Below, one piece after another: positions 2,141 to 33,622 of a DNA stretch of 33,995 nt (the first letter of the stretch is position 1; each line of letters starts with the position of its first letter). Made by a program: the position numbers and the translations under genes. Source of the DNA: Candidatus Hinthialibacter antarcticus (GTDB lineage Bacteria > Hinthialibacterota > Hinthialibacteria > Hinthialibacterales > Hinthialibacteraceae); assembly GCA_030765645.1 (NCBI GenBank), contig JAVCCE010000024.1, positions 1-33,995 of the forward strand. Reading direction: 5' to 3'. The notes beneath the pieces were generated by a model. The model worked only from the letters and a program-made list of their open reading frames with translations. It ran no database searches and was not told where the DNA came from.

Positions 2141-2174
2141 CCCTCATCCTCACCTTCTCCCAGAGGGAGAAGGG
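2141..2174. repeat. Solo copy of the CCCTCTCCC/GGGAGAGGG palindromic repeat
   Basis: The sequence runs CCCTCA..., a short spacer, CTTCTCCC, AGA, then GGGAGAAGGG, a hairpin with 8-bp arms. It is a degenerate copy of the repeat that frames the DUF559 gene at 33061 and 33443, in the orientation of the latter. It lies just past the dxr stop. Read on the minus strand, the hairpin is followed some bases later by a T-rich tract, so it may also serve as the dxr terminator. Confidence 0.7.
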
Positions 2175-23556: not shown

Positions 23557-23580
23557 TCCCTCTCCCGGCGGGAGAGGGGA
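23557..23580. repeat. Solo copy of the CCCTCTCCC/GGGAGAGGG palindrome
   Basis: TCCCTCTCCC-GGCG-GGAGAGGGGA-type hairpin in the short space between the DUF1080 gene and the converging radical SAM gene. It shares its core with the inverted repeats that frame the DUF559 gene and with 2141-2174. Confidence 0.75.
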
Positions 23581-32899: not shown

Positions 32900-33060
32900 A
32901 ATGGTATAAACGGTTTTGTATGGATTATCAGAACGCTGTTTCAGTTATTATAGGTGATAAAAATATATTGGAGCACAGCGCTGCTTCATAGTTTCTAAAT
33001 TGACATACTATTGAACTAATTGATTGAACGTACTATGAATTAACAATGCGAAAACACATC

Positions 33061-33093
33061 CCCTCTCCCTCTGGGAGAGGGTTAGGGTGAGGG
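33061..33093 (+). repeat. Left 33-bp inverted repeat of the DUF559 cassette
   Basis: Begins CCCTCTCCCTCTGGGAGAGG and continues GTTAGGGTGAGGG. It matches the reverse complement of 33443-33475 at 31 of 33 positions. The inner CCCTCTCCC/GGGAGAGGG makes it a hairpin by itself. Its last purines (GGTGAGGG) lie just before the DUF559 ATG and can serve as the ribosome binding site. Confidence 0.9.
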
Positions 33094-33096
33094 AAA

Positions 33097-33390
33097 ATGA
33101 ATGAGAATAAACTCAATCCTGAAATTTTAGAATTTGCCAGGAAGTTAAGACAAGATCAAACTTCAGTAGAAAATTCACTATGGCGAATACTCCGAAATCG
33201 TACTTTACTAAACGCCAAGTTCAGACGCCAACATCCCATCCCGCCTTATATCGTCGACTTTTATTGTCATGAAGCGAGACTCGTTGTTGAATTAGACGGT
33301 GGTCAGCATAATTCCTTCAAAGAGATTGAATATGACAAATCACGAGACGAATTTTTGAGCGAAAAGGGAATCGCTGTTTTGCGGTTTTAG
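33097..33390 (+). CDS. DUF559 (Vsr-like) endonuclease domain protein, ending at an amber codon
   Basis: A 97-residue protein of the DUF559 family, small PD-(D/E)xK nucleases related to Vsr mismatch endonucleases. Family marks are LRQDQTSVENSLWRILRNR, KFRRQHPIPPYIVDFYC (Asp of the active site), and LVVELDGGQHN with the E-x-D-G-x-Q-H catalytic pattern. The tail YDKSRDEFLSEKGIAVLRF follows. The usual family continuation is F-W-N followed by a helix; here the Trp position is TAG. After it the same frame continues NRELSDSPESVIEAIVHA for 39 codons to a stop at 33508-33510, and the last part is encoded by the right inverted repeat. So this is either a slightly shortened enzyme or a nonsense-mutated gene. 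Both DNA ends carry the 33-bp inverted repeat, as in a mobile or domesticated cassette. Confidence 0.85.
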   Translation: MNENKLNPEILEFARKLRQDQTSVENSLWRILRNRTLLNAKFRRQHPIPPYIVDFYCHEARLVVELDGGQHNSFKEIEYDKSRDEFLSEKGIAVLRF

Positions 33391-33442
33391 AACCGTGAAC
33401 TAAGTGATTCTCCTGAGAGTGTAATCGAAGCGATAGTTCATG

Positions 33443-33475
33443 CCCTCACCCCAACCCTCTCCCAAAGGGAGAGGG
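33443..33475 (-). repeat. Right 33-bp inverted repeat of the DUF559 cassette
   Basis: Reverse-complement partner of 33061-33093 with two mismatches. In the readthrough frame of the DUF559 gene it encodes LTPTLSQRERE, a peptide that such repeats generate wherever they run into coding frames. Solo relatives occur at 2141-2174 and 23557-23580. Confidence 0.9.
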
Positions 33476-33543
33476 AGTCGGCCGCGATTCTTCTCAGGCA
33501 AAAAATTTAGCGCAAGTCAAAGCGTAGATATCTCACCTTTTTC

Positions 33544-33622
33544 GATCCCCCCTGGCGCTTTCAGCGCCGTCCCCCCTTAAAAAGGGAGGCGAACATACTG
33601 AAGTGCGGGTTCTTAACCCACC
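33544..33622. repeat. Two further dispersed repeats beside the DUF559 cassette
   Basis: 33544-33590 is the second copy of the C-run / GCGCTTTCAGCGCC / C-run / TTAAAAAGG element found at 1989-2037, in the same orientation. 33606-33622 is a short copy of the GGGTTCTTAACCCACC palindrome. No gene lies between the DUF559 cassette and the rpmG terminator. Confidence 0.75.

Follow-up and report, generated by a model that had tools for sequence, protein, structure and literature searches.

Lone DUF559 nuclease genes and TM/PIT triplex repeats as a likely nuclease-repeat element of bacteria

Solo DUF559 genes and the intergenic TM/PIT repeats likely belong together as one nuclease-repeat element, in which binding, cleavage and movement by the nuclease are inferred. 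We regard this as the best explanation. The analysis shows the framing of DUF559 genes by inverted repeats, the specificity of the ends for their gene, covariation within the ends, defined element boundaries, insertion between operon genes and the predicted fold of the protein. The DUF559 gene is probably the source of the TM/PIT repeat family, including the repeats of E. coli. A wider claim, towards which we lean only slightly, is that these are a new enzymatic class of mobile element: hairpin-triplex-ended units whose mover would be a single nuclease of the Vsr/EDxHD-type PD-(D/E)XK kind, able to read the single strand in its folded state together with a base pair between flank and linker. 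Such an element would account for the TM/PIT repeats of hundreds of bacterial species, among them E. coli K-12 (ycjD). Its type of enzyme and the build of its ends both set it apart from known repeat-mobilising systems.

No agent of spread has been known for these repeats; Holder et al. found no mobility gene around TM (PMC4666352). With the link to a protein family that has already been crystallised, E. coli K-12 offers a direct way to test the question. If true, the mobility enzyme would belong to none of the DDE, HUH, tyrosine/serine recombinase or reverse-transcriptase classes, and the covariation would be evolutionary evidence for selection on a DNA triplex fold in cells. Neither the repeat nor the protein family is new in itself; what the open-licence papers searched do not describe is that the two are partners, that the ends are gene-specific and that flank and linker pair, and no prior description of a DUF559 gene with an inverted repeat was found there.

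The window locus

The window, that is, the whole stretch of 33,995 nucleotides analysed here, is one contig (C24) of the Candidatus Hinthialibacter antarcticus genome (5.15 Mb, 78 contigs). A sequence-only reading of this DNA had placed a DUF559 gene between inverted copies of a 33-bp repeat, 3 bp before the ATG and about 50 bp after the stop. Alignment of the arms confirms this: 33061-33093 and 33443-33475 are inverted copies of 33 nt that agree at 31/33 positions (94% complementary), the gaps are 3 bp before the ATG and 52 bp past the annotated stop, and no other inverted pair of at least 31/33 within 1 kb is present anywhere in the window. The same reading took each repeat to be a hairpin; there is indeed a 9-bp hairpin in each, but both repeats are more than that, as a third G-rich strand comes after it.

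The 5' end repeat (33061..33093, minus strand, assigned by the CCCTCACCC pattern) is TM and type-A-like. It consists of a C-arm (33061-33069), a loop (33070-33072), a G-arm (33073-33081), the linker TTA (33082-33084) and, on the gene-proximal side, the third strand GGGTGAGGG (33085-33093), which mirrors the G-arm. The 3' end repeat (33443..33475, plus strand), also TM, begins with the complement of the third strand (33443-33451) and continues with the linker CAA (33452-33454), the C-arm (33455-33463), the loop (33464-33466) and the G-arm (33467-33475). Among the outer bases at 33059..33060, T33059 (position o2, see below) is Watson-Crick to linker A33084 and takes part in the covariation; among those at 33476..33477, G33477 pairs with linker C33452. 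The two ends thus differ, the 5' end being of the T-A type and the 3' end of the C-G type.

The ORF in between (33097..33390, plus strand, 97 aa) matches DUF559 (PF04480) with E 4.1e-32 and 110.7 bits, above the Pfam cut-off of 20.6. The stop given by the sequence-only reading is present at 33388-33390; it is a nonsense codon, however, an in-frame TAG at the position of a Trp conserved in the family (LRF*N vs LRFWN), and the domain continues to 33447, reaching 127.5 bits over its whole extent (33127..33447, plus strand) with one TAG inside. Past the TAG, the open frame runs on into the 3' repeat (LTPTLSQRERE), and the 3' part of the domain is a relic frame entering that repeat; with the TAG at the conserved Trp, the domain is not intact at full length. 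An alternative code with TAG readthrough was ruled out, TAG being a used stop that ends 5/19 long ORFs of the window; we therefore take the window copy to be truncated by it. This copy is probably dead, and is a recognisable, nonsense-truncated member of the group.

A second class of repeat lies beside the unit at 33547..33590 (plus strand), with a G-tract, a spacer hairpin GGCGC..GCGCC and a hairpin CCCCCCTT..AAGGG. It is of the same design, here as hairpin, spacer hairpin and G-tract, and has 78 copies in the genome, one of them beside the DUF559 gene of contig C15; the nuclease of this class is unidentified.

The 33-mer itself equals a motif that Holder et al. described in 2015 (PMC4666352) as an intrastrand triplex motif, TM/TMECO, also called PIT. 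TM is intergenic, has the layout CCCTCTCCC-loop-GGGAGAGGG-TTA/CCG-GGGTGAGGG and occurs in more than 260 genomes, with 23 copies in MG1655 (PMC4666352); TM/PIT repeats are known from E. coli, Neisseria, cyanobacteria and many other bacteria. Copies are unstable between strains, those of E. coli form stable triplexes in vitro, and some are arranged as an inverted A+B pair, type A always being partnered by type B (PMC4666352). The window repeats meet the TM pattern, with a hairpin and a mirror-image third strand, GGGAGAGGG-NNN-GGGTGAGGG.

Framing of DUF559 genes by inverted repeats

Scanning with the protein alone yielded 80 DUF559 loci spread over many phyla, each taken with as much as 10 kb of flanking sequence per side. 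TM-like matches cluster around the genes, where they are mostly inward-oriented: 117 were found in the 69 kb within 300 bp of the gene vs 56 in the remaining 1.22 Mb, a motif density about 37 times that elsewhere in the 80 loci. When flanks were searched for inverted repeats without any motif, a score of at least 18 was reached by 47/79 DUF559 loci vs 0/1585 intervals of the same size. At a score of at least 16, 28/61 DUF559 genes were framed, as compared to 4/808 neighbours among the called genes of the same loci (p=1.4e-31); one of these four is another DUF559 gene. In a set of relatives picked by Pfam profile, not by similarity to the window, 14/19 loci reached a score of 16. The sequence-only reading had proposed comparing DUF559 with neighbouring genes, and had stated that the pairing would be coincidence if other DUF559 genes in the genome lacked flanking repeats and the repeats were scattered uniformly between genes. 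DUF559 genes are framed far more often than their neighbours, and the dispersed repeats form inward pairs; the framing is not coincidence.

For a quarter to a half of the DUF559 genes, no matching ends could be detected, and these include the other two of the window's genome. Many of the loci are orthologous across genera (e.g. Lysobacter, Dyella, Xanthomonas, Pseudoxanthomonas), and the framed loci are therefore not all independent; the genes are inherited mostly vertically.

In 28/63 DUF559 proteins the C-terminal tail (e.g. TPTPLPEGEG) is an in-frame reading of the 3' repeat and not part of the domain. One genome that is 59% complete (G014) has eight DUF559 matches, and G008, a relative from the same order as the window's genome, is identical to another record over 1191 bp (L036/L120).

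One nuclease, one repeat type

Some genomes contain two or three DUF559 genes, the paralogues being 37-64% identical. The similarity of a 5' end to the 3' end of its own gene has a mean of 22.8, vs 12.25 to the ends of a paralogue (permutation p=2e-4). In both of two planctomycetes, protein clade A goes with GCTCCCCTCTCC ends and clade B with CTCCCCTTCTCCT-like ends; in one of them clade B ends are also found apart from the gene. The correlation between protein and repeat across genomes is modest (Mantel 0.226, p=0.003).

Genome G061 has, in addition, outward pairs of clade B repeats on contigs C235 and C437 (L191, L192). These are 200-260 bp apart, share sequence with the interval adjoining the DUF559 element and are arranged like a BIME array.

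Structure of the ends

An antiparallel purine triplex requires a mirror third strand. From family to family, it is indeed the purine arm of the hairpin that the third strand mirrors (A may be T), and in some families the linker is a hairpin too. For asymmetric ends, the mirror fits better than a direct repeat in 49 cases and worse in 3, with 19 tied; counted by arm type, the ratio is 17 to 2 (p=7e-4). With 49/52 decided ends favouring the mirror, a direct repeat was ruled out for asymmetric arms.

There is a further regularity between o2, the base two positions outside the hairpin, and X, the linker base that directly precedes the third strand. These are Watson-Crick in 56/57 DUF559 ends (C-G 35, T-A 20, A-T 1) and in 34/34 ends of the window's genome; shuffles have a mean of 29 and 0/1000 reach 56 (relatedness uncorrected), and neighbouring registers gave nothing comparable. 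The test was exploratory, as the association was found first and then tested on overlapping data. Several arm families contain two or more pair types, which speaks for a genuine pair, as far as sequence alone can tell. In 11/17 elements the two ends differ in pair type, as in the window, and this offers a reason for Holder's rule that A is always found with B. The ends thus appear to covary at the level of structure, while triplex formation itself is inferred.

The nuclease

The AlphaFold model of an intact relative (pLDDT 91) matches three solved folds, namely NGO0050 of N. gonorrhoeae (3hrl), itself a DUF559, the homing endonuclease I-Bth0305I (3r3p, 4.6e-5) and Vsr (1vsr, probability 0.99), and a profile search agrees (3hrl 3.7e-39, 3r3p E 2e-5). 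The kinship with Vsr-type nucleases, which the sequence-only reading had put forward, is thus supported by the predicted fold. In 51 DUF559 proteins E25, D54, E65, D67 and D80 are invariant, and H71 is found in 50/51; in fold and in conserved acidic and His positions the family belongs to the Vsr-type PD-(D/E)XK nucleases, and the 3r3p match establishes homology to the catalytic domain of EDxHD homing endonucleases. An intron or intein setting or a long DNA-binding region is absent; these are single-domain proteins of ~110-150 aa in repeat-bounded units. YcjD has been placed in PD-(D/E)XK near Vsr, its profile detecting Vsr (PMC1189080). A search with PADLOC gave weak matches only.

The N. gonorrhoeae DUF559 locus (L149), of which 3hrl (NGO0050) is apparently the product, has a degenerate TM-like repeat just upstream.

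Element boundaries, insertion sites and alleles

A transposable element is expected to occur as one unit at unrelated sites with sharp ends, and this is met by the clade A elements L065 and L075 of the two planctomycetes and by relatives of their insertion site. The two elements are 87% identical but lie in unrelated flanks, their homology ending where the repeats end on the outside, at GCTCCCC..GGGGAGC. The L065 unit lies between cas5 and cas4-cas1; in six relatives (L198-L203), cas4-cas1 is preceded directly, or almost so, by the next upstream ORF, with no DUF559 in between (cas identities were read from translations, without a profile search). A search with the joined flanks of the L065 site gave no contiguous match, only separate cas genes. 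In S. parapaucimobilis, an element is found between pntAA and pntAB, and in a Sphingobium plasmid the two genes overlap without an insert.

In E. coli, gene-less pairs are polymorphic: alleles without the TM pair exist at hrpB-mrcB and fepB-entC, and further alleles retain a single hairpin that bears both outer flanks. The absence of the pair could be due to deletion or to its never having been inserted, which are indistinguishable. No target-site duplication was found, and at hrpB-mrcB none is clear; many element classes make none. The window has a counterpart of the one-hairpin alleles at 23557..23580 (no strand assigned), where a single hairpin carries the outer flank of each end, the form left when the inner part of an end pair is deleted. 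This site and 2141-2174 had been read from the sequence as solo copies of the repeat. Both are related to it; the site at 2141..2174 (plus strand) is a lone end of variant type, with a CCTTCTCCC arm and a GGATGAGGG third strand, whereas that at 23557-23580 is the single hairpin just described.

Some further loci are of note. The sapF-fabI interval has two E. coli alleles, with either ycjD or the eef efflux operon; sapF-ycjD-fabI was rejected as an empty site, since ycjD-less strains carry the operon there (PMC12817139). In E. coli K-12, the terminal part of ycjD (L034) is a TM-like remnant, CACCCTCTCCCTGA, with TMECO no. 9 following ~168 bp downstream. At L075, ~70 bp of flank (AAAACATGGNTGAATCGAT..CTTGCTCCCC) is present on either side of the element and may be a trace of how it was copied. 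The DUF559 gene on S. meliloti pSymB (L159) is framed by near-perfect inverted repeats of ~113 bp, pieces of which recur many times on the plasmid; these resemble the rhizobial RIME elements.

The alternative that fares best, though we consider it unlikely, is a homing-type cassette, where the nuclease cuts existing repeat pairs, repair copies the gene in, and the repeats spread otherwise. The nearest solved folds after the Neisseria homologue, I-Bth0305I and Vsr, would suit such a cassette, and the gene-less pairs are possible empty targets. However, the L065/L075 cassettes begin and end exactly where their repeats do, the cas5/cas4-cas1 relatives without DUF559 have little or no space for a repeat pair, and the repeats are gene-specific inside one genome. 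Less probable still, in our opinion, is that DUF559 is a host repair or triplex-processing enzyme whose regulatory or structural sites, the repeats, gather at its own gene. In its favour are the mostly vertical inheritance of the genes and the finding that Caulobacter VsrA, a DUF559 protein, affects DNA damage and has been proposed to be a mismatch-repair nuclease (PMC12907096); against it, sharply bounded elements occupy loci that are unrelated, and each gene keeps company with ends that match it.

Spread of the repeats in genomes

The window's genome holds 48 TM copies at no more than 1 mismatch, while reversed-pattern controls gave 0-1. Among 80 tabulated sites (the table is a manual copy of the site list) there are 14 inward and 2 outward pairs; 13 inward pairs are gene-less, with spacers of 11-112 bp, and the sole gene-bearing one is the DUF559 unit. 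The genome-wide search that had been suggested from the sequence thus shows the repeat dispersed as inward pairs; as for the motif, it had already been described. Some TM-rich relatives are without a full DUF559 (G002, G006, G007). Co-occurrence of TM and DUF559 has p=0.09 across the phylum, with 14 genomes only, and p=3e-4 in a 61-genome set, uncorrected for phylogeny; a phage collection gave three matches only.

We see very little room for RAYT/Y1 or another transposase as the mover of the repeats, with DUF559 as a passenger. Y1_Tnp genes are present in 9/11 TM-carrying genomes, but TM lies within 400 bp of 0/18 Y1 genes in the 11 repeat-carrying genomes; as 6/18 Y1 genes have inverted flanks of their own, the test could have detected TM framing, and on these 18 genes we reject RAYT as the mover of TM. 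Coincidence, or the base composition of G-rich intergenic DNA, can be dismissed, common as TM is in some genomes, by the interval and gene controls, the mostly inward orientation and the near-zero reversed-pattern controls.

Proposed mechanism

We thus favour a nuclease-repeat element whose unit would comprise, at each end, a hairpin, a linker and a G-rich third strand, the ends being inverted with the third strands inward and enclosing one gene for a Vsr/EDxHD-type PD-(D/E)XK nuclease. The likely mechanism, which is inferred, is that the ends become single-stranded during replication and fold into the hairpin-triplex, and that the cognate nuclease recognises the folded end and nicks its outer flank. 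Repair or copying would then move gene-less end pairs often and the whole gene-bearing unit rarely. Gene-less pairs would spread in a REPIN-like manner, solo hairpins would be the remains of internal deletions, and the nuclease gene itself would be passed on mainly vertically, as are RAYTs.

Comparison with known systems

The TM/TMECO/PIT repeat is the same as that described before, intergenic, often an inverted A+B pair and unstable between strains (PMC4666352); what differs here is that the repeat bounds a DUF559 unit, and that types A and B can be explained as the T-A and C-G pairing ends of one element. Vsr, E. coli YcjD and N. gonorrhoeae NGO0050 (3hrl, the solved DUF559) have a common fold, but Vsr systems as described have no repeats, unlike DUF559 units. 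With I-Bth0305I (3r3p) the family has in common the fold of the catalytic domain and, as inferred for DUF559, a nuclease serving the spread of its own gene; in contrast to EDxHD homing endonucleases, DUF559 proteins are of catalytic-domain size only, are not in an intron and have structured ends.

The closest likeness in behaviour is to REP/REPIN-RAYT, with short palindromic intergenic repeats in inward pairs, a framed nuclease gene, distinctive single-copy genes with their own repeats, and solo decay products (PMC3116915, PMC3733652). One trait of that system, inward pairs genome-wide together with a gene framed by those repeats, is found here. No consistent GTAG or CGTC tetranucleotide tag, as in REP, was found in the repeats examined. 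The sequence-only reading had called the locus REP/RAYT-like, which holds for the pairs, the framing and the gene-specific ends, but the gene is not a RAYT: the REP-RAYT enzyme is an HUH Y1 nuclease, whereas DUF559 is PD-(D/E)XK/Vsr-like (PF04480), and none of the 18 Y1 genes has TM nearby. The ends differ as well, since REP-RAYT repeats are without the third-strand feature and DUF559 ends carry a third G-rich strand. By analogy, we infer that the DUF559 element works like REP-RAYT, though its enzyme is unrelated and its ends are of another kind; the parallels between the two lie in behaviour and not in descent.
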